Assembly: GCA_020051695.1 (NCBI GenBank)
Contig: JAGVQM010000006.1
Coordinates: forward strand, 62,001 to 126,000
DNA length: 64,000 nt
From: Candidatus Zixiibacteriota bacterium
GTDB taxonomy: Bacteria > Zixibacteria > MSB-5A5 > WJJR01 > JAJRUJ01
Direction of reading: 5' to 3'
This document shows positions 38,440 to 50,124 of this stretch, piece by piece. Under the pieces are notes generated by a model. It made no database searches and was not told the DNA's origin. It saw nothing but the letters and a program-made list of their open reading frames with translations. A program made the position numbers and the translations under genes. How positions within the stretch are numbered: the first letter of the stretch is position 1; every line of letters begins with the position of its first letter.

Positions 38440-40356
38440 CTAACTCAACACATAAATCAACCAGGCGAGGACTGCTACACTGCCCAGAGCAAAGGTTGCA
38501 GCATATCCGCGGAAATACCCGTTTTGCGGCTGCGCGCCGGCCTGGCCCAGTTGTCTGACGAACGCTGCCAGCCCATTGACCGAACCGTCAATGACCAGTT
38601 CATCAAAATATTTCCACAACCAGCGCGAACCGCCGACAATCGGCCGCACAATGACCAGGTGATAGAACTCGTCGATATAATACTTGTTCTGCACCAGCCG
38701 GTATACTGCGGGGAACTTGTTTTTCAGGTTCTCCGGCGCGGTGGAACCTCTCAGATACCAGCGATAGGCCCAGATAAAACCGAGCAGCGCAATGCCGACC
38801 GATAACCCCATTAATAAGAATTCGGTACTGTGAGCGTGGTTTACACCGTGCGGCAACAGTTCCTCGGCCGCGGCAAATACCGGCGCGAGATAATGCTCAA
38901 ACGAGTTGCCGCCGCCCAGCACTTTGGGCCAGCCGATCCACCCGCCGACAAATGATAAAATACCCAGGATGACCAGCGGGCCGGTCATCGACATCGGTGA
39001 TTCGTGCACTTTGGTTGCGGTTTCCTCGGAAAACCGTGACTTGCCGTAGAACGCCAGAAAAAACAGCCGGAACATATAAAACGCCGTTAATCCCGCAGTC
39101 AATACCCCGACAACCCAGAACGCCACACCGCCCAGCGGGGAGGCGAAACTGCTCCACAAAATTTCATCTTTCGACACAAACCCCGCCAGTCCCGGAAAGC
39201 CGGAGATCGCCAGCGTGGCCACCCCGAAGGTCAGAAACGTCGCCGGGAGATATTTCCGCAGGCCGCCCATGTGGCGCAAGTCCTGTTCATGGTGCAACGC
39301 GTGGATTACCGAACCCGCACCCAAAAACAGCAACGCCTTGAAAAACGCATGCGTCATCAGATGGAAAATCGCTGCGGAAAATGCCGCTACCCCGCAGGCC
39401 AGGAACATATACCCCAGCTGGCTGATCGTCGAGTAGGCCAGCACGCGTTTGATGTCGTTTTGCACGGTGGCCATTGTCGCAGCAAACAGCGCAGTCGCCG
39501 CCCCGATGATCGCCACTACCAACAGCGCGGTGGGGGACAGGGCAAACAATACCGAGCAGCGGGCCACCATATACACTCCCGCCGTGACCATCGTTGCCGC
39601 GTGGATCAACGCTGAAACCGGGGTCGGGCCTTCCATGGCATCAGGCAGCCAGACATAGAGCGGAATCTGCGCCGACTTGCCGGTGGCGCCTAAAAACAAT
39701 AACAGACAAATCGCCGTCACCAGAGTATCGCCGGGGACAAACATCTCCGGCGCCGCGGCAAAAACCTCGGGAAAATACACGCTGCCGAATTTCCAGAAGA
39801 TCAGCATGATTCCCAGCGCAAAGCCAAAATCGCCGATCCGGTTGACAATGAACGCCTTTTTCCCGGCGTTGGCCGCCGAATCTTTCTGAAACCAGAACCC
39901 GATCAACAGATAGGAACACAACCCGACACCTTCCCACCCCATGTATAACAGCAGGAAATTGTCGGCCAGAACCAGCACCAGCATGAAAAACACGAATAAA
40001 TTCAAATACGCGAAGTATCGCGAAAACCGCTCGTCCTGCGCCATGTACCCGGTGGAATACACGTGGATTAAAAACGCGACGCCGGAAACGGTCACGGCCA
40101 TCACCGCCGAGAGATGGTCCAGCAGGAAACCGAACGAGACGGTAAACCTCCCTGCAACAATCCACTCGGCCAGCGTGAAACGGTGCGGTCCCTCGCCAAG
40201 GAACAACATCGCCAGCAGCGAGAGGATAAACGATGCGAACACCGTCAGGCACCCCAGCACCCCCGAGCCGTACCGCGTCAGACGGCGGCCGAACAGCCCG
40301 TTGATCATGAAGCCGATCAGCGGAAACACCGGTATGAGCCAGATTGTGTTCAGCAT
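38440..40356 (-). CDS. nuoL: NADH-quinone oxidoreductase subunit L
   Basis: The largest membrane subunit of complex I, 638 residues, with the core antiporter fold and the long lateral helix near the C-terminus. Motifs include LLYMGWEGVGLCSYLLIGFW with the conserved Glu, PLYVWLPDAMEGPTPVSALI with TM7 Lys nearby (GATGKSAQ), and HAFFKALLFLGAGSVIH. The final span FALGSVAVLAWLIYVLS anchors the C-terminus. It lies between nuoK and nuoM in the usual order. Confidence 0.96.
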   Translation of the reverse strand: MLNTIWLIPVFPLIGFMINGLFGRRLTRYGSGVLGCLTVFASFILSLLAMLFLGEGPHRFTLAEWIVAGRFTVSFGFLLDHLSAVMAVTVSGVAFLIHVYSTGYMAQDERFSRYFAYLNLFVFFMLVLVLADNFLLLYMGWEGVGLCSYLLIGFWFQKDSAANAGKKAFIVNRIGDFGFALGIMLIFWKFGSVYFPEVFAAAPEMFVPGDTLVTAICLLLFLGATGKSAQIPLYVWLPDAMEGPTPVSALIHAATMVTAGVYMVARCSVLFALSPTALLVVAIIGAATALFAATMATVQNDIKRVLAYSTISQLGYMFLACGVAAFSAAIFHLMTHAFFKALLFLGAGSVIHALHHEQDLRHMGGLRKYLPATFLTFGVATLAISGFPGLAGFVSKDEILWSSFASPLGGVAFWVVGVLTAGLTAFYMFRLFFLAFYGKSRFSEETATKVHESPMSMTGPLVILGILSFVGGWIGWPKVLGGGNSFEHYLAPVFAAAEELLPHGVNHAHSTEFLLMGLSVGIALLGFIWAYRWYLRGSTAPENLKNKFPAVYRLVQNKYYIDEFYHLVIVRPIVGGSRWLWKYFDELVIDGSVNGLAAFVRQLGQAGAQPQNGYFRGYAATFALGSVAVLAWLIYVLS

Positions 40357-40393
40357 GTGTCGTGTCGCGGTGCTCGTTTGGACTAAGACCCGC

Positions 40394-40696
40394 TCAGCCC
40401 TTCAGGATATTTAATTCATCCACATCAACAGTATTCTTGCGCCGGAAGATGGCGATGACCAGCGACAAACCCACCGCGGCTTCGGCGGCGGCCACCACAA
40501 AAATGATGAATACAAAAACATGCGCGCCCGGATCGGCATGCCAGCGCGCAAAACTGATCAACGCCAGGTTCGCCGCGTTGAGCATCAGCTCCACCGACAT
40601 CAGGATGGTGATCAGGTTGCGCGAGATCAAAACTCCCACCGTGCCCAATCCGAAAAGCACTGCCGAGACCAGCAGATAATGCGACAGCGGGATCAT
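40394..40696 (-). CDS. nuoK: NADH-quinone oxidoreductase subunit K
   Basis: A 100-residue three-span subunit, the MrpC-like part of the membrane arm. It has the two conserved Glu in ILMSVELMLNAANLALI and VAAAEAAVGLSLVIA, which form part of the proton wire. Length and motifs are textbook. Its ATG overlaps the nuoJ stop by 4 bases. A 37-base spacer separates it from nuoL. Confidence 0.97.
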   Translation of the reverse strand: MIPLSHYLLVSAVLFGLGTVGVLISRNLITILMSVELMLNAANLALISFARWHADPGAHVFVFIIFVVAAAEAAVGLSLVIAIFRRKNTVDVDELNILKG

Positions 40697-41223
40697 GAAC
40701 GCTCCTCCGGGGGTTGCGCTTCCTCACGTTTTCCGGCCAGCACCAGCGCCCCGGCCACCGCGATCAACAATAGAATAGAGGTCAACTCAAAAGGCAGTAA
40801 ATACTCTCCAAATAACAACCGTCCCACTTGCGCGACCGAGCCGAATTCAGCGGCCACCACTTGCCCGTCTGTTGGGCTGGATGAGACAAACGCCCGGGCA
40901 ATAAGCGAAATTTCGATAATCAGTGTCCCGCCGATCAGGACACCGAAAGAGCGGAGTCCCGGCTTGCGGTTACTGCCGAATTGGTCCTGGTTGAGGTTCA
41001 GAAGCATAACCACAAACAGGAACAAGACCATAATCGCGCCGGCGTAGATGATAATTTGCAGTGCGGCAATGAATTCCGCTGATAGTTGAAGATATAACAC
41101 CGCCAGCGCAAAAAGGACCACCACCAGTGAGAGAACGGAATTAATCGGTTTTGATTGGAAAATAAGGTTTATCGCGGCAGCCCCGGCTACTCCGGCTGCT
41201 ATCCAGAAAACGGCAAAATCCAT
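40693..41223 (-). CDS. nuoJ: NADH-quinone oxidoreductase subunit J
   Basis: A 176-residue, five-span membrane subunit of complex I. The conserved TM3 stretch LQIIIYAGAIMVLFLFVVML, whose pi-bulge is mechanistically important, is intact. It is the first gene of the block; the hydrophilic subunits and NuoA/H/I are not in the window and must be encoded elsewhere. About 625 bases without a gene lie upstream, holding a duplicated hairpin element. Confidence 0.95.
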   Translation of the reverse strand: MDFAVFWIAAGVAGAAAINLIFQSKPINSVLSLVVVLFALAVLYLQLSAEFIAALQIIIYAGAIMVLFLFVVMLLNLNQDQFGSNRKPGLRSFGVLIGGTLIIEISLIARAFVSSSPTDGQVVAAEFGSVAQVGRLLFGEYLLPFELTSILLLIAVAGALVLAGKREEAQPPEERS

Positions 41224-41848: not shown

Positions 41849-44134
41849 TCAAGTAACTGCGGAGACTCCCTTGGCCGCCCAGCGCAGCAGCTTTTCCGCG
41901 CCCCGTTTGCCCTCCGGGCCGATTTCACCTTCGGGTCCCACGCAGGATGGGCATCCAGACGAACACGTACACCGGCCGATCAAATCGGCCGCCGCGGAGA
42001 ACAGTTCATCGGACATCCGGAAAATCTTCGCCGACAAACCCACGCCACCGGGGATGTTGTCATACAGGTAAATCGTTGGACGTTGCGAAAAATTCGAACG
42101 CACCTGCGTAATCGCGCGTACATCCCGCACATCACTCATCACCCACAACGGCACAATCGTGCCCAGCGCGTTGGCCGCCGCGTGCAATATCTCTCCCGCG
42201 CGGTGCGGGGGAAAATCGAGGATTTCATGGAAGTTCGGCTCGAATTCATACCAAAACGACGTCGTGTGCATCTCGATCTCCGGCATGGCCAGCGACCCGA
42301 ACCCGACATTTTCATGCGTAAAAAATCTGATCTTTTTATACAACACCGCCACCGAGGTCAACGATACATCACCCAGGGCTTTTTTGCCCCCGGAGCACAG
42401 CGCTTCCTGTTCGACTTCAAGCACTTTCAGGTCGGTCTTGGTCTCCGCGTCGGTATAATAATCGGTATCGATTTCTTTCACATAGGCCCGCCGCCCCTCC
42501 CAGTCGAGTTCCTCGACCTGGTATTGTCCGGCGCCGTGCAGGTAAATCGCCTTGGGGTGCAGAAATTCGGGCGCGGAAAAATAATCGACATCGCCGATTA
42601 CCCGGTTCTGGTGCGAGCGGTCGAGGATCACAAAATTTTCCGGCGAGGCCGACCGCAGGCTTATCTCATTGGCGGGGTAGACCTCTGAGGCCCAGAACCA
42701 TTTGTCTTTGGAACAGTGCACCACACGCTCGCTCGCCAAATGTTCCAGAAACGGCGCGGCCGGTCCGGCGCCGAACGATTCGCCGCCCTCGAAGGGGATC
42801 TCGAATGCCGCGCACTTGATATGCGACATCAGGACCACCAGGTTGTCCGGGTCGATGATCCCGCTTTCGAACGGCCGCCCGAACAGGTATTCCGGATGGG
42901 TCATCAAAAACTGGTTGACCGGCGAGGAATTGCCGACAAAGACTGCCACCGAAACGTCCTGCTTGCGTCCGGCGCGCCCCGCCTGTTGCCAGATCGATGA
43001 AATCGAGCCGGGATAACCGTTGATCACTGCGGCCGACAACGAGCCGATATCAATCCCCAGCTCCAGCGCGTTGGTCGAGACGACGCCTTTAATTGTCCCC
43101 TCGCGCAGTCCCCGCTCGATTGCCCGCCGCTGGTTGGGCAGATATCCGCCACGGTATCCCTCGATGCCGCTCGTGCTTTTCTTCTGCCGGGTCATCGTTT
43201 CCCGCAAATAGGTCAGCAGCAGTTCGACTTGCCGCCGATAGGGGGTAAAGACAATCGTCGGAATATCCATGGCCAGAAATTGCGCGGCGACATCCCGTGA
43301 TTGCAGCAATGCGGACTTGCGGATTCCCAGCTGCTGGTTGACCACCGGCGGATTGATCATGATGAAGTGTTTTTCCCCGGCGGGCGCGCCGTTATCGTCG
43401 ATGGTCGTGAATTCGGTCTCGGCCAGTTTTTCGGCCAATTCCCGCGGGTTTTGGATCGTGGCCGAGCAGGCGATAAACTGCGGGTCCGAACCATAAAACG
43501 CGCAGACTCGTTTGAGCCGTCGCAGTACATTGCCGAGGTGTGACCCAAACACGCCCCGGTAATGATGGACTTCATCGATGACCACGTATTTGATATTCTC
43601 AAACAATTTAATCCACTTGGTATGGTGCGGCAGGATGCCCGCGTGCAGCATGTCCGGGTTGGTGATCACGATATGCCCTGCTGCGCGGATTTTTTTGCGG
43701 GCGTCGCCCGGCGTGTCGCCGTCAAACGTGTGCGCTTTGATGTCTAGCCCGACGGCATCGATCAAGGCCAGTACCTCGTCCATCTGGTCCTGGGCCAGCG
43801 CCTTGGTGGGAAATAAATACAACGCGCGGTATTCCGGGTGCGCGGCCATCGCCGCCAGCACCGGCAGGTTATAACACAGGGTCTTGCCCGAGGCGGTGGG
43901 GGTCACAACGACCGGGTTTTTGCCGGCCTTAATCGCGTCCCACGCGGCGCGCTGATGCGAGTATAACTGCGAAATCCCGCGCGAGCGCAGGACATCGGCC
44001 AGCCGGGAATCGAGGTCCAGGGGGAATTCGGCGTATTTGCCCGCGCGGCGCGGTATGTGCTGCCAGTGCACGATATTCCGCGCGAATTTGGGATCGCTTT
44101 TGAATTGGTCCAGAATCTGCACCAGATTGATCAT
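41849..44134 (-). CDS. MrfA-like DEAD/DEAH helicase with DUF1998
   Basis: A 761-residue SF2 helicase. Motifs run in order: Q-like SHQRAAWDAI, Walker A TPTASGKT, Ia LFPTKALAQDQ, DEVH in VIDEVHHYRG, SATIQNP, then the second RecA domain with STNALELGIDIGSLSAAV and QQAGRAGR. The C-terminal DUF1998/MZB region ends with the Cys cluster CTCSSGCPSCVGP. This matches Bacillus subtilis MrfA (YprA), a 3'-5' helicase for repair of mitomycin adducts. MrfB, its exonuclease partner, is not beside it. The upstream gene on the same strand is the archaemetzincin-like protein, 103 bases away. Confidence 0.9.
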   Translation of the reverse strand: MINLVQILDQFKSDPKFARNIVHWQHIPRRAGKYAEFPLDLDSRLADVLRSRGISQLYSHQRAAWDAIKAGKNPVVVTPTASGKTLCYNLPVLAAMAAHPEYRALYLFPTKALAQDQMDEVLALIDAVGLDIKAHTFDGDTPGDARKKIRAAGHIVITNPDMLHAGILPHHTKWIKLFENIKYVVIDEVHHYRGVFGSHLGNVLRRLKRVCAFYGSDPQFIACSATIQNPRELAEKLAETEFTTIDDNGAPAGEKHFIMINPPVVNQQLGIRKSALLQSRDVAAQFLAMDIPTIVFTPYRRQVELLLTYLRETMTRQKKSTSGIEGYRGGYLPNQRRAIERGLREGTIKGVVSTNALELGIDIGSLSAAVINGYPGSISSIWQQAGRAGRKQDVSVAVFVGNSSPVNQFLMTHPEYLFGRPFESGIIDPDNLVVLMSHIKCAAFEIPFEGGESFGAGPAAPFLEHLASERVVHCSKDKWFWASEVYPANEISLRSASPENFVILDRSHQNRVIGDVDYFSAPEFLHPKAIYLHGAGQYQVEELDWEGRRAYVKEIDTDYYTDAETKTDLKVLEVEQEALCSGGKKALGDVSLTSVAVLYKKIRFFTHENVGFGSLAMPEIEMHTTSFWYEFEPNFHEILDFPPHRAGEILHAAANALGTIVPLWVMSDVRDVRAITQVRSNFSQRPTIYLYDNIPGGVGLSAKIFRMSDELFSAAADLIGRCTCSSGCPSCVGPEGEIGPEGKRGAEKLLRWAAKGVSAVT

Positions 44135-44237: not shown

Positions 44238-44783
44238 TCAAACCGGTTTGCGGACCATATCCCGCCGACAGTTGTCGCAAAACGTGTCGTTTTTGAAATC
44301 AGTATCCGACATATCGGTCGAGCGATACATCACACACCGCGGGTTCCGGCAGTACCGTGCGAGAAACAGGTACCCGACCTGATTGATGGCTTCCTTTTTA
44401 ACCCGTTCAAAGACCAGTTTATCGTCCTCCGGTAGTCCGTAAAATTCCTGTTTGATGCGGTAGCAGGACAACAGCGCGCATCCGGCGTACGGGTCGGACT
44501 CATGATACACGAAGGGTTTGGTCGGGATGTACAGGTCTTCGTCGATAATCCCCAGCAGTTTTTCCCGGTTGTTTGCGCGCAGGCGTTCGAGTTTGCTCAA
44601 AATCACGGTGGAAAAATACTGCAGCCGGCCCGGGTGATAGGCCTCAGGGGCCGGTTCGGTGCCCTGGACAATATCCACCGCCGAGGTGAAGGCCTCGGAC
44701 AACTTGCCGGCGAGTTTATTAATCTGGAAAAAATCCAGCTCACCGATCGGCACAATGATTATTTTCTGGCGGGCTTTCATCAT
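44238..44783 (-). CDS. Archaemetzincin homologue with lost catalytic site
   Basis: A 181-residue protein that aligns along its length with archaemetzincins. It opens IIIVPIGELDFFQINKLAGK; the middle has LGIIDEDLYIPTKPFVY and EFYGLPEDDKLVFERVKKEA. Family members then have HExGHxxGLxHC. Here the same place (residues 134-145) reads NQVGYLFLARYC, so all three zinc-ligand His and the catalytic Glu are replaced. The structural zinc site is kept: Cys 145, 150, 169 and 172, with PRCVM, DTD and FCDNC in family spacing. The fold is therefore expected, but not peptidase activity. Role unknown; perhaps binding. Neighbours are a zinc-ribbon protein and the MrfA-like helicase. Confidence 0.85.
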   Translation of the reverse strand: MMKARQKIIIVPIGELDFFQINKLAGKLSEAFTSAVDIVQGTEPAPEAYHPGRLQYFSTVILSKLERLRANNREKLLGIIDEDLYIPTKPFVYHESDPYAGCALLSCYRIKQEFYGLPEDDKLVFERVKKEAINQVGYLFLARYCRNPRCVMYRSTDMSDTDFKNDTFCDNCRRDMVRKPV

Positions 44784-44843: not shown

Positions 44844-45023
44844 TTATGATGCCTCAAAAAAACGGTCTTTCGAGCCGTACGGCGAGACTTCCACCACCAT
44901 TTTGGCCGCGCACTTGGGGCACCAGGCGACGAAAGCGTCGCCTTTCTTGTTCAAGTACGCCCGGACATATTTGCGGCAGCACTTGAAATGCACGCCAATG
45001 AACGGCCGCCCCTTGTCCGTCAT
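44844..45023 (-). CDS. 59-residue zinc-ribbon protein
   Basis: A small frame starting at ATG 45023 and ending with TAA at 44844. The translation begins MTDKGRPFIGVHFKCCRKYV, continues through an Asn/Lys/Gly turn, and has a second Cys pair in WCPKCAAKMVVEV. Adjacent Cys 15-16 plus CxxC at 35-38 would bind one zinc. Two beta hairpins with a basic first half suggest nucleic acid or protein binding; no named family is recognised. It follows the ROK kinase stop by 18 bases and precedes the archaemetzincin-like gene by 60, so it is probably co-transcribed. Confidence 0.75.
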   Translation of the reverse strand: MTDKGRPFIGVHFKCCRKYVRAYLNKKGDAFVAWCPKCAAKMVVEVSPYGSKDRFFEAS

Positions 45024-45041: not shown

Positions 45042-46037
45042 TTATGGATGTTCCGTGGCGTTCCTGCCCAGCGCCGCCGCGCCGATAAAACCTGCCCGGT
45101 TCCCCAGTTTTGCGGGCACCAGTTTTGTCTTGGGGGCGGAATTTTTAAACGTTAACCGTTTGGTCCGCCGAAAGACATCCGCGATAAACTCAGGCGCGGC
45201 ATCCGCTGCACCGCCGCCCACAACCAGGACTTCCGGGTCAAAGGCATTAATGATGCTCGCCAGACCCACCGCCAAGTCGTCGGCCACTGTCTCCAAAAGT
45301 TCGACTGCGGCCGGGTCGCCGTCACGTGCAGCACTGAACACCCCGGCCAGGGAGGAATCCTCTCGGGCGGAAAAATCGATGTGTGCCAGCGCCGAATGTG
45401 GGTAAAAATCGGCCAAACGTGCCGCACGCCGCAGGATGGCTCCGGCCGAGGCGTACAATTCGAGGCACCCCCGGTTGCCGCAGCCGCAGGATGGACCGCG
45501 GGAGTTGATGGAAATATGTCCCAGCTCGGCGCCGGTATAGTGCGCGCCGTGAAAGAGCCGGCCGTCAATGATGATCCCCGAACCGATTCCTGTGCCGAGA
45601 GTCAGGACCAGCGCGTGCCGGCTGCCGCTTGCGGCGCCATAGGTGTACTCGGCATACGCTGAACAGTTCGCGTCATTGTCCACAGCAATCGGCAGCCCGA
45701 ACTCGGCAAACGGCGTGCGCAATTCCACGTTTACCCATCCCGGCAGGTTCGGCGATTCGCCGGTAATTTTTCCGCTACACGGATTGATTGTGCCCGGTGA
45801 ACCGATACCGATGGCCTGGGGCCGAAAACCCCGCGAAACGCTGTGCTCGGCCATTTCTAGGATCACGCGGTGCAGGGTGTCAATTAACCTCTGTGGCCCG
45901 CCGTCCAGTAGAGTCGGCGTGCGTGAGGAAAACAACACAGTGCCGTCCGAATTGACAACCCCGTATTTGACAAACGAACCCCCGATATCCAGACCCAGAT
46001 AGACCGGGTTTCGTGTTTGTCCCGAACTGTTGGTCAT
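45042..46037 (-). CDS. ROK-family sugar kinase (glucokinase-like)
   Basis: A 331-residue ROK protein without the N-terminal winged helix of ROK repressors, hence a kinase. The ATP phosphate-binding LGLDIGGSFVKYGVV is at about 13-27. Further motifs are GIGSPGTINP, the catalytic-Asp region AVDNDANCSAYAEY, GTGIGSGIIIDG, and the zinc site GHISINSRGPSCGCGNRGC. The CGCGNRGCLE motif is typical of glucokinase or N-acetylglucosamine/mannosamine kinases; the sugar cannot be settled from sequence. It begins 6 bases after the aminotransferase stop. Confidence 0.9.
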   Translation of the reverse strand: MTNSSGQTRNPVYLGLDIGGSFVKYGVVNSDGTVLFSSRTPTLLDGGPQRLIDTLHRVILEMAEHSVSRGFRPQAIGIGSPGTINPCSGKITGESPNLPGWVNVELRTPFAEFGLPIAVDNDANCSAYAEYTYGAASGSRHALVLTLGTGIGSGIIIDGRLFHGAHYTGAELGHISINSRGPSCGCGNRGCLELYASAGAILRRAARLADFYPHSALAHIDFSAREDSSLAGVFSAARDGDPAAVELLETVADDLAVGLASIINAFDPEVLVVGGGAADAAPEFIADVFRRTKRLTFKNSAPKTKLVPAKLGNRAGFIGAAALGRNATEHP

Positions 46038-46043
46038 TTTCGG

Positions 46044-47276
46044 TTAATGCGTTTGCTGGTACTCGGCCAACCCGAGCCGCAGCGCCCTCATGGCGCGGAT
46101 TAATTTTTCTTTTTCAAGGACATACGCAATGCGCGCTTCGTTTTTCCCCATGCCCGGCGTCGCATAAAATCCCGGCCCCGGCGCTATCATTACTGTCTGG
46201 TTTTCATAGCTAAAATCGGTCAACATCCAGCGGCAGAAATCCTCGATGTCCGCTACCGGGAATGTTCCCATGAAGTAGAATGCACCCAATGGCTTACGGC
46301 AAAAGCAACCGGGGATTTTATTGAACAAATCGACAATTGTATCCCGGCGGCCGCGATATTCATCGGCCAGCGCCGTGTAATATGATTGCGGCAGGTCCAT
46401 GACGCGCGCGGCGGCAATTTGCTCGATAGTCGGTGAGCACAAGCGGGCTTGCCCGAGGCGCAACGCCGCGTCCATGACTTGTTTGTTGCGGGAGGCCAGG
46501 CACCCCACCCGAGCGCCGCAGGCCGAATACCGTTTGGAGATCGAGTCCAGCATAATCGCCCGTTCGGCGATTTCCTCGAATTCCCAGATTGACGTGTGTT
46601 TTCCGGTGTAGCAGAACTCGCGATAGACTTCATCGGAAAGGACAAACACATTTTTTCGCCGTGCAAGGTCCGCAATCCCGCCCATCACTTCGCGGGACAG
46701 CAGTGTCCCGGTCGGGTTGTTCGGCGAGCATAATAAAATCGCCCGCGTGCGGCCGGTGATTTTCTGCTCTATTTTTTCCAGCGGCGGCAGTCCGTAACCC
46801 TGCCCGGGATCGGTCGCCAGCGGGACTAGTTTTACGCCGGCCTCCACGGCGAAACCCATATAGTTAGTATAGTATGGCTCGAAAACGATGATTTCGTCCC
46901 CGGGATTGGCGATAATCGTCAGGGCAAAGAGGATCGCCTCCGATCCTCCGGTGGTGATTTGAATTTGTTCAACCGGGATGTCCAGCCCGATATTTCGATA
47001 GTATCGAGAAAACGCCGTCAGCAGCTCCGCATGACCCTGGGAATGGCCATAGGCCAGCACCGGCGCGGAGAATGCGCGTACAGCCGCCAGAAATTCCGGC
47101 GGGGTCGGGATGTCCGGTTGGCCGATGTTTAGGCCATAAACGGTGATGCCCCGCTTTCTGGCGGCCTCGGCGAAAGGCACCAGCTTGCGGATCGGTGAAG
47201 CCGGCATCAACCTCGATCGTTCGGATAACAGTAACGCCCCGATTTTGGCCGGGGTAGTGACATTCGGGTCGGACAT
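46044..47276 (-). CDS. PLP-dependent class I/II aminotransferase
   Basis: A 410-residue fold-type I aminotransferase in the aspartate aminotransferase family. Motifs are NIGQPDIPTPP, the cofactor-binding GGSEAILFAL, LCSPNNPTGTLLS, VLSDEVYREF and the Schiff-base Lys in DSISKRYSACGARVG. The tail binds substrate carboxylate (EARIAY Arg). ATG 47276 with an AGG site is chosen over the frame limit at 47309. It heads a minus-strand run with the ROK kinase, zinc-ribbon and archaemetzincin-like genes. The substrate amino acid is not determinable. Confidence 0.9.
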   Translation of the reverse strand: MSDPNVTTPAKIGALLLSERSRLMPASPIRKLVPFAEAARKRGITVYGLNIGQPDIPTPPEFLAAVRAFSAPVLAYGHSQGHAELLTAFSRYYRNIGLDIPVEQIQITTGGSEAILFALTIIANPGDEIIVFEPYYTNYMGFAVEAGVKLVPLATDPGQGYGLPPLEKIEQKITGRTRAILLCSPNNPTGTLLSREVMGGIADLARRKNVFVLSDEVYREFCYTGKHTSIWEFEEIAERAIMLDSISKRYSACGARVGCLASRNKQVMDAALRLGQARLCSPTIEQIAAARVMDLPQSYYTALADEYRGRRDTIVDLFNKIPGCFCRKPLGAFYFMGTFPVADIEDFCRWMLTDFSYENQTVMIAPGPGFYATPGMGKNEARIAYVLEKEKLIRAMRALRLGLAEYQQTH

Positions 47277-47703
47277 GTCATACCTCGCTTTGTCCTTGCC
47301 GCCGGGCAAACCACAGCGGCCGGTCCAGTCCGCCTAAGAATACAGCAATCCGCGGCCAAACCCAAAGCAAAACTTGGCCAGATGATCCCGATCCGTGCCG
47401 GTGGGCTATGCCGACGAAGTCCGACCGACTATTTTTTTCCCTTGACATCCGCCGGCGACAAAATTTCCCTGTCTAAGGAAGACAAGGGGGGAAAGTTTTT
47501 GCGGATATGCAGTTAGGCGGATAATGGCGGGACGTGCATTGTTTTATGGTGCATGCGGTATAATATGCGCATGAAACATTGCCGGTAATTTGCCCGGACG
47601 GTACCGCAAGAGCCACTCGAAACACCAGCAGGAAAAAGCGAAAATACTGCCAGGGAATGGCAGATAAATTGTCGCGCCATGCGCGCGATACTCAGGAGGG
47701 GGC
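47277..47703. other. Intergenic region between divergent genes
   Basis: No gene is seen. A TTGACA at about 47442 has no good -10 partner. A perfect TATAAT near 47559 has only a weak -35 and may serve the plus-strand gene at 47704. The ribosome site GGAGGGGGC directly precedes that ATG. Confidence 0.4.
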
Positions 47704-50124
47704 ATGAATACACGGGTTGTGATTTTGGGAATCCTCGGATTGTTACTGTTTTCACCGGCGGCGTTTGCACAGATGGTGGACACCACATCGCCGGGCCTGA
47801 ATGAGGTCGGCGTAGCGGTTTCCGCGAATATCTATGTCACATTTAATGTGGAAATGAATATCGGGACATTCGATGAGACCAGCTTCGTCGTCTGGGGCAA
47901 TACCATGGGGCGGATCGCCGGGGCTATTTACTATGATATCCCCACCAAAGTTGCCTCGTTCAATCCCACGGGCAATTTCGCCCCCGGCGAGGTGGTTACG
48001 GTGATTTTGACCGACGATATCATCAGCACCAGCAGCGGCCCGCTGACCGGCGGTTATACGTTCTCGTTTGTCGCCGCGACTGACGGCGGCGGCGGAACGT
48101 ACGGCACGGCAGTCAATTACGCAGTTGGCGTCAAACCCACGGGGCTCATTGCCGCACGGCTCAATGCCGGGGCCAATATCGACTTGGCGGTCGTGAACTG
48201 GGATATGGACAGCATCTCGGCCCTGATGAACAACGGCATCGGCATTTTCGGCTCGAAACGGAACTACGCCACGGACAACAGCCCGTGGGGATTGTGCGCC
48301 GCTGATTTCGATACGAATGGTTCGATGGATCTGGCGACGGCCAATTTCGCCGAGGGCACAATCTCGGTGTTGCTTAACGATGCCGATACGGTCGGCAAGT
48401 TTTCCACTCACGCCCAGTATGCGGTGGGTACCGACCCGTATATCCTGACCTGCGGCGATCTGGACAATAACGGTGTTGCCGATATTGTCACGGCCAACTT
48501 CGGTTCGAATACAGTCTCAGCACTGATCGACGACGGTGACGGTACGTTCGCGGCCGCGGTGTCCTATGCCACGAATATCGAACCGTACGGTGTTTGTCTT
48601 GCCGATGTGGATGCCGACGGTCACCTCGATATCATTGCAGGCAACCGGAGTTCCGGGATCGATAACGTTTCGGTATTAATCAACGACGGCGACGGCACGT
48701 TTGCGGCCAAAGTCGATTACGGCGTCGGTCTGACGCCCTTCGCCGTCGGCGCCGCTGATTTGAACGGCGACGGGTACCCGGATATCGTGACCGCCAACCG
48801 GGGCGGGGACAATGTCTCTGTCCTGATCAATGAGGGAGATGGAACTTTTGCCCCCGCGGAATCATATGGCGCCGGTGACGGTCCCTCGGCTGTGGTCATT
48901 GCCGACCTTAATTCAGACGGCTCGCCGGATTTAGCGGTGGCCAACGCCCTGAGCGATAATATCTCGATTTTGCTGAACAACGGCGACGGCGTATTCGATG
49001 ATGATGTGACCTATAACGTCGGGACCCGGCCGTATTTCATCACGGCGGGCGATTTTGATGACGACGGCGATCTCGACCTGGCTGCCGCGAACAATAGCTC
49101 CAACAATATCTCAGTGCTGGCCAACCAGGACGCCAGTGTCTGTATCGACAGCGACGGCGACGGGTATGGCGACCCGGGCCACCCGGAAAATGATTGCGAA
49201 ACCGACAACTGCCCCGATTCGGCCAATGCCAACCAGCTGGATGCCGATGATGACGGTATCGGCGATGTATGCGATAATTGTCCGCAAGTCGCCAACTTCA
49301 ATCAGGCGGATGCCGACAGCGACGGTTTCGGTGATCTTTGTGACCTGTGTCCGGGCTTTCACGACACGCTCGACGCGGATAACGACACAATTCCCGATGC
49401 CTGCGACAATTGCCCGGATTCCACCAACACGAACCAGGCCGACACCGACGACGACGGCAAGGGGGATGTCTGCGATAATTGTCCGAATGCCGCCAATTTC
49501 AATCAGGCGGACAGTGACAGCGACGGCGTGGGCACTGCCTGCGATTTATGCGAGGGGTATGACGACAAGGCTGATCTGGACCACGACACGGTGCCGGACG
49601 GCTGCGATGAGTGCCCTGGGTTCAACGACCTGGTAGACGTCGACGATGACGGCAAACCCGATGGCTGCGATAACTGCCCCGATTCGGCGAACGCCAACCA
49701 GTTGGACACCGACAATGACGGCGTCGGCGATGTCTGTGACAACTGCCCGTTCGTGGCCAACCACAGCCAGGCCGACAGTAACGGCGACGGCGTGGGCGAT
49801 GTCTGCGAGGTCGGGATTCTCGAACCGGAGGAGCCAAATATGCCCGAACGGTTCGACCTGCTGCAGAATTATCCGAACCCGTTCAACCTCGGCACGACAA
49901 TTCCTTTCGCCTTACCGGCACCGGCTCATGTCGAGCTCACCATTTACGATGTTTCCGGTCGCGTGGTGCGGCAGCTGGCCGGTGAATCGTATCAGGCGGG
50001 TGTGCATGCGATCCAGTTCGACGGCCGCAGCAACGGCGGCGAGGCACTGTCGTCGGGCATTTATTTCTATCTGTTAAAAGCAGACCACCAAGTGAAAACC
50101 AGACGAATGGTTTTGTTGAAATAA
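47704..50124 (+). CDS. Secreted FG-GAP propeller / TSP3 protein with C-terminal sorting-type domain
   Basis: An 806-residue exported protein. A signal peptide (VVILGILGLLLFSPAAFAQ) precedes a Big_5-type Ig-like domain at about 22-130. Seven FG-GAP/VCBS repeats follow (for example VCLADVDADGHLDIIAGN and VGAADLNGDGYPDIVTAN), consistent with a seven-bladed propeller. Then come several TSP3 calcium repeats (DADDDGIGDVCDNC type). The last 90 residues have LLQNYPNPFNLGTTIPF, VYDVSGR-like IYDVSGRVVRQL and a SGIYFYLLKA end, the FlgD-like/type IX-type C-terminal domain frequent in FCB bacteria. It shares TSP3 modules with the protein at 26298 but has an unrelated propeller and a different tail. It is monocistronic, with its own terminator. 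Confidence 0.85.
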   Translation: MNTRVVILGILGLLLFSPAAFAQMVDTTSPGLNEVGVAVSANIYVTFNVEMNIGTFDETSFVVWGNTMGRIAGAIYYDIPTKVASFNPTGNFAPGEVVTVILTDDIISTSSGPLTGGYTFSFVAATDGGGGTYGTAVNYAVGVKPTGLIAARLNAGANIDLAVVNWDMDSISALMNNGIGIFGSKRNYATDNSPWGLCAADFDTNGSMDLATANFAEGTISVLLNDADTVGKFSTHAQYAVGTDPYILTCGDLDNNGVADIVTANFGSNTVSALIDDGDGTFAAAVSYATNIEPYGVCLADVDADGHLDIIAGNRSSGIDNVSVLINDGDGTFAAKVDYGVGLTPFAVGAADLNGDGYPDIVTANRGGDNVSVLINEGDGTFAPAESYGAGDGPSAVVIADLNSDGSPDLAVANALSDNISILLNNGDGVFDDDVTYNVGTRPYFITAGDFDDDGDLDLAAANNSSNNISVLANQDASVCIDSDGDGYGDPGHPENDCETDNCPDSANANQLDADDDGIGDVCDNCPQVANFNQADADSDGFGDLCDLCPGFHDTLDADNDTIPDACDNCPDSTNTNQADTDDDGKGDVCDNCPNAANFNQADSDSDGVGTACDLCEGYDDKADLDHDTVPDGCDECPGFNDLVDVDDDGKPDGCDNCPDSANANQLDTDNDGVGDVCDNCPFVANHSQADSNGDGVGDVCEVGILEPEEPNMPERFDLLQNYPNPFNLGTTIPFALPAPAHVELTIYDVSGRVVRQLAGESYQAGVHAIQFDGRSNGGEALSSGIYFYLLKADHQVKTRRMVLLK

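Follow-up and report, generated by a model that had tools for sequence, protein, structure and literature searches.

The archaemetzincin-like gene and its neighbours

The window, a 64,000-nucleotide stretch of a Candidatus Zixiibacteriota genome, carries on its minus strand a row of genes in the order aminotransferase, ROK kinase, 59-aa four-Cys protein, pseudo-archaemetzincin and helicase. The features are as follows:

46044..47309, minus strand: class I/II aminotransferase (PF00155, 160.6 bits), in the flank of the same row
45042..46037, minus strand: ROK-family kinase (PF00480, 217.6 bits), upstream in the same row, flank only
44844..45023, minus strand: 59-aa four-Cys protein (CC...CPxC), directly upstream of the pseudo-archaemetzincin, with homologues upstream elsewhere in the phylum
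44238..44783 (stop codon included), minus strand: predicted non-catalytic archaemetzincin-like protein of 181 aa (PF07998, NF033823, archaemetzincin PDB entries, orthologues across the phylum)
44562..44645, minus strand: segment of residues 47-74, some positions of which are fixed in the pseudoenzymes alone (weighted column frequencies, pseudoenzyme versus intact)
44352..44384, minus strand: catalytic-motif remnant, residues 134-144, NQVGYLFLARY replacing HExxHxxGxxH (alignment to 3lmc, 4axq and in-phylum homologues)
44268..44351, minus strand: structural Cys4 zinc site, Cys 145, 150, 169 and 172 (invariant in 107 of 107 aligned pseudoenzymes)
41849..44134, minus strand: MrfA/YprA-type DEAD helicase with HRQ1 winged helix and MrfA zinc-binding (MZB) domain, next downstream (PF00270, PF00271, PF22982, PF09369)

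Elsewhere in the window, minus-strand genes at 38443-41223 resemble the NADH dehydrogenase subunits NuoL, NuoK and NuoJ, as read from their translations. On the plus strand, 47704-50124 encodes an 806-aa protein with repeats in which we recognise, by eye, thrombospondin-type-3-like calcium repeats and a C-terminal segment like a type IX secretion sorting domain.

The frame at 44238-44783 is open from its ATG to its stop codon, and its product is an archaemetzincin homologue, as an earlier note on this DNA had claimed. In a Pfam profile search PF07998 (Peptidase_M54) matches it at 54.8 bits, well over the cut-off of 24.4; the note's refuting outcome, a profile search with no archaemetzincin match, did not occur. 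The NCBIfam model NF033823 (archaemetzincin family protease) scores 130.5 bits, just below its cut-off of 145, and the solved archaemetzincins 3lmc, 4axq, 3zvs and 2x7m align with E values from 2e-20 to 3e-12. That the protein follows the archaemetzincin pattern end to end is true of NF033823, which covers residues 7-175, but not of PF07998, the alignment of which takes in residues 46-176 and falls short of full length. The fold is assigned from sequence homology to these solved structures; a two-sequence AlphaFold model has a pLDDT of 38.8. The window copy is the sole M54 gene found in a search of its own genome. Scanning genome contigs with this single sequence recovered one distant relative, a Desulfobacterales locus, and no homologues were detected in the viral contigs scanned.

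The HExxHxxGxxHC motif of 3lmc and 4axq aligns onto NQVGYLFLARYC of the window protein. Residues 134, 135, 138 and 144 are Asn, Gln, Tyr and Tyr where active members have His, Glu, His and His, and residue 141 is Leu where the motif has Gly, so that the catalytic HExxHxxGxxH of M54 is absent. The alignment confirms the loss of all three His ligands and the Glu that the note had read from the letters, and the motif flanks that it described as preserved are indeed present. The structural signature C-x4-C-x-M...CxxC is complete: all four Cys residues named in the note (145, 150, 169 and 172) are there, and the Met-turn Met 152 is kept. The same four Cys positions are the zinc ligands in solved archaemetzincins (PMC3427221). 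Given these substitutions, the window copy almost certainly has no catalytic zinc and no activity.

Graded loss of the catalytic site across the phylum

M54 matches were found in 121 of the 133 genomes of the phylum and in 77 of the 79 good-quality ones, in open frames without stops. From the fetched loci we extracted 138 homologues, 137 from within the phylum and the one Desulfobacterales locus. Among the 137 in-phylum copies (counts that reflect related genomes and not independent events), 28 have an intact motif, one (L137) reads HExxHxxNxxH, and 108 lack at least one His or Glu residue of the catalytic set. At one end of the range, two of the 108 copies keep all three His and have Gln for Glu; at the other, 20 copies, the window copy included, have lost all three His as well as the Glu. 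The first two His are retained in 67 of the 108, many copies carry an acidic residue (Glu or Asp) in the third ligand position, and the catalytic Glu survives in only 11. A sub-clade (families f4 and f17-f19) has Asn at the third ligand place and mostly keeps HExxH. To judge from these residues, the window copy can firmly be called 'dead', the Gln/Arg copies are likely to be so, and the HExxHxxGxxN copies may or may not be.

The close relatives of the window copy are altered in the same way. Its nearest relative, from another genus, reads ALIGYLHLARYC (motif ALIGYLHLARY), and the motif in genomes of the same order is HLVGQLHRLVS, RLLGQLYNLNT, TQVGRLYQLGH or HQVGHLFRLTT. The possibility that sister genomes all carry HExxH, which would have pointed to a local error, is contradicted by a genome of the same family (KKEATALIGYLHLARYCRNPRCVMY) and by same-order copies with HLxxQ, HVxxQ, RLxxQ, TQxxR or HQxxH. 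Outside the phylum, all 23 sampled loci other than those of CarG, the non-proteolytic archaemetzincin of Myxococcus xanthus, retain the three His and the Glu (L186-L208). As judged from the alignments, catalytic residues have gone in most of the phylum, by degrees that range from a single substitution to a wholly erased motif; the selective loss of the active site that the note described is real, but it is not peculiar to the window gene.

Selection on the dead set

In the dead set the catalytic columns 134, 135, 138 and 144 rank 132nd, 118th, 114th and 173rd of 181 by weighted entropy conservation, and the four zinc-site Cys are invariant (107 aligned sequences). Among close relatives in the dead clade dN/dS is 0.015-0.117 where dS is measurable; these figures come from other lineages of the clade, dS being saturated between the window copy and its nearest relative. 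Taken together, the variable catalytic columns, the invariant Cys and the low dN/dS indicate that the gene is maintained for something other than its catalytic site, and point to a metzincin-type protein that is under strong purifying selection and the catalytic zinc site of which is not maintained.

The dead set has also fixed positions of its own. Glu 47 (99%), Lys 64 (about 100%) and Glu 74 (100%) are fixed, whereas at these places the commonest residue of the intact set reaches 22% at most; Glu 66 is enriched to 85%. We regard residues 47-74 as a candidate binding surface. With 108 copies, invariant Cys, variable catalytic columns, newly invariant positions and low dN/dS behind it, the note's proposal of a retained non-proteolytic role instead of decay is well supported.

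Phylogeny and number of losses

Our careful tree was built with the five motif columns excluded and with 31 representative non-canonical copies and L137 among the taxa; these 31 copies and L137 form one clade with 99/94 support. L137 is nested inside it, grouping with L124/L126 at 80/37 in a 97/91 sub-clade. A clade of dead copies without L137 nevertheless withstood the AU test made on the quick tree (p 0.65). The position of this intact-motif member implies either repeated loss of activity within the phylum or a misplacement of L137; from the tree topology, more than one loss is probable. L137 also has the ROK–aminotransferase–helicase neighbourhood, with the helicase downstream and ROK upstream, and because it shares this place the archaemetzincin–helicase gene order may be older than the loss of the active site.

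CarG lies outside the dead clade and groups with motif-keeping Myxococcota homologues, at 99/81 (with L253/L255) and 98/83. An AU test on an earlier sampling that did not include those Myxococcota relatives did not reject a joint clade of CarG and the dead copies. The loss in CarG is best read as separate from that in the phylum. Some Myxococcota homologues that score below the CarG cut-off have damaged motifs of their own (L252, L256 and L257, with DAxxQ, HQxxL and a third His changed to Gly), and these stand beside Myxococcota relatives with an intact motif.

Conservation of the gene neighbourhood

A homologue of the four-Cys protein, which has no match in a Pfam search, lies directly upstream of 91 of 108 pseudo-archaemetzincin genes, of none of 30 intact ones (28 in-phylum copies, L137 and L032) and of none at 53 out-of-phylum archaemetzincin loci, over half of which are CarG loci. 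The gene is absent from several in-phylum genomes. The 59-aa family, with CC and CPxC invariant, also occurs in several other phyla (L241-L249) with no archaemetzincin adjoining, which weakens the case for a strict partnership. At L241 and L242 the gene adjoins or overlaps another that looks, by eye, macro-domain-like.

All four domains of the downstream helicase (DEAD, Helicase_C, HRQ1 winged helix and MZB) score above cut-off. An MrfA/YprA-type helicase follows within 600 nt at 71 of the 99 pseudo loci with enough flanking sequence for this count, and at 0 of 27 loci of the other, intact in-phylum paralogues. MZB is found in 58 of the 79 good-quality genomes, against 77 for M54. The pseudo gene stands without an adjoining helicase in families f12 and f19 and in the near-complete genomes G025 and G059-G061; G125, the nearest relative, has its helicase on a separate contig from the archaemetzincin. 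Genes farther upstream vary by family (ROK/aminotransferase or DeoC/DeoB) while the row of four-Cys protein, pseudo-archaemetzincin and helicase persists. Note that shared transcription alone can give a conserved gene order.

Intact archaemetzincins have other neighbours. They adjoin a sensor histidine kinase, in some cases with a CxxCH motif, and an NtrC-type response regulator, the latter directly upstream of 21 of the 28 in-phylum intact copies; in-phylum intact loci with two-component genes are L063, L079, L081, L090, L117-L123, L125, L127, L130, L132, L152 and L158. Two-component homologues also adjoin 12 of the 23 sampled out-of-phylum non-CarG loci (L188, L196, L198, L200-L208), often overlapping. 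Active archaemetzincins of bacteria may function in the context of such two-component genes.

Proposed role and alternative explanations

CarG is not proteolytic and does not bind DNA; it depends on its four Cys and works together with CarD, to which it binds (PMC3427221, PMC4374960). Following this precedent of a non-proteolytic, Cys4-dependent protein that acts with a partner, we propose that the pseudo-archaemetzincin would be a non-enzymatic binding protein, an adaptor or scaffold with its fold held by the Cys4 zinc. The stretch around residues 45-74, with its newly fixed charges, would form part of its interface, and its associates would be the co-directional four-Cys protein upstream and the MrfA/YprA-type helicase downstream. 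An adaptor role is probable, and the window protein may bind peptides or proteins. The fuller reading, a pseudoenzyme adaptor with the four-Cys protein and the helicase as leading partner candidates, is one that we favour on balance. Gene order gives the four-Cys protein about an even chance of being a partner and the helicase a somewhat lower one; a role in DNA repair is doubtful. We can suggest only tentatively that, phylum-wide, a vertically inherited archaemetzincin turned into a non-enzymatic subunit of a hitherto unrecognised complex with the repair-type helicase and the four-Cys protein, with stepwise and repeated loss of the site while the complex was kept.

The alternative that survives best, although we consider it unlikely, is that the protein is a CarG-like transcription co-regulator, brought to the transcription machinery by a further protein, its gene neighbours being incidental. 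CarG, recruited through CarD, is the only characterised bacterial non-proteolytic archaemetzincin that we found, and genomes that lack the helicase still keep the archaemetzincin gene. However, we detected no CarD or CdnL partner in the window's own genome, where the single CarD_TRCF-domain match belongs to a 1211-aa frame, most likely Mfd, making the same partner as CarG's improbable. Furthermore, NF033824 (non-proteolytic archaemetzincin-like protein; Myxo_non_zincin), which from the paper and from the model's name and range we take to represent the CarG family, gives the window protein 94.9 bits against an equivalog cut-off of 250, while its members in myxobacteria score 250-340. This score and the placement of CarG among motif-keeping Myxococcota rule out the window gene as a CarG member.

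It is quite improbable that the protein is a residual or altered metal enzyme that retains its chemistry at a different metal site, such as HxxxH plus Glu or Asp. The 67 copies with the first two His, and the many with an acidic residue at the third ligand place, would fit such a site, but the window copy and 19 others have neither a His ligand nor the Glu, the Glu base persists in only 11, and the catalytic columns vary freely inside single families. Slimmer still are the prospects of a modulator of intact archaemetzincin, in which the dead copy would bind the substrates or partners of an active paralogue: both kinds do occur together in some genomes (e.g. G007, G130, G131, G045, G060 and G061), and PMC11266112 describes the regulation of active cousins as a general role of pseudoenzymes, yet the window genome has a single M54 gene and most genomes with a dead copy lack an intact one. 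Gene decay or sequencing error has a negligible chance despite the loss of every catalytic residue, since a local error or pseudogene is ruled out by the open frames without stops, by the same loss in independent sister genomes and by the low dN/dS in other lineages of the clade.

Significance and comparison with known systems

We know of no settled biological role for archaemetzincins. The window protein is well supported as a non-proteolytic archaemetzincin, as the note had held, but the kind as such is already known from CarG and perhaps from vertebrate AMZ1, doubtful as a protease. In bacteria, the literature that we could search describes it only in myxobacteria. That search, which covered few subscription journals, turned up no phylum-wide non-proteolytic family beyond myxobacteria, no graded loss at one locus and no link to an MrfA/YprA helicase. 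The series of active sites from intact to fully erased, largely in one neighbourhood, amounts to a natural experiment in the conversion of a metzincin into a non-enzyme; it also supplies candidate partners to test. A further consequence is that annotation by Pfam M54 alone labels many probable non-proteases as peptidases.

CarG resembles the window protein in being a stand-alone archaemetzincin homologue of about 170-180 aa with the Cys4 site kept and the motif broken. They differ in that the CarG-type sequences sampled read HQxxHxxGxxY or HLxxHxxGxxY, whereas the window copy has no ligand left; sampled CarG loci, most of which span only about 1.5 kb on each side, contain neither an MrfA-type helicase nor the four-Cys gene. 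In vertebrate AMZ1 the third His ligand is replaced by Asn, Ser or Thr (PMC3427221), similarly to families f4 and f17-f19 with their Asn at this place. AMZ1 keeps more of the motif than the window copy, and its activity is doubtful.

In Bacillus subtilis, MrfA pairs with the MrfB exonuclease in mitomycin repair (PMC11194089). The gene downstream in the window is of the MrfA/YprA type, with MZB and the HRQ1 winged helix, but its neighbour here is a dead archaemetzincin and not MrfB (YprB): the RNase_H_2 (MrfB-type) match is on contig C17 and the helicase on C32. The words metzincin, M54 and protease are absent from the main text of a survey of the YprA family (PMC12458937).

Finally, the active-motif archaemetzincins (AfAmzA, 3zvs/4a3w; Methanopyrus kandleri, 2x7m; and 3lmc) share with the window protein sequence homology, the Cys4 site and the Met-turn Met. 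The archaeal archaemetzincins studied in PMC3427221 did not cleave the protease substrates offered to them. The window copy differs from the active-motif proteins in having no catalytic Glu or His ligands, and the dead set to which it belongs varies at those positions while fixing 47, 64 and 74.
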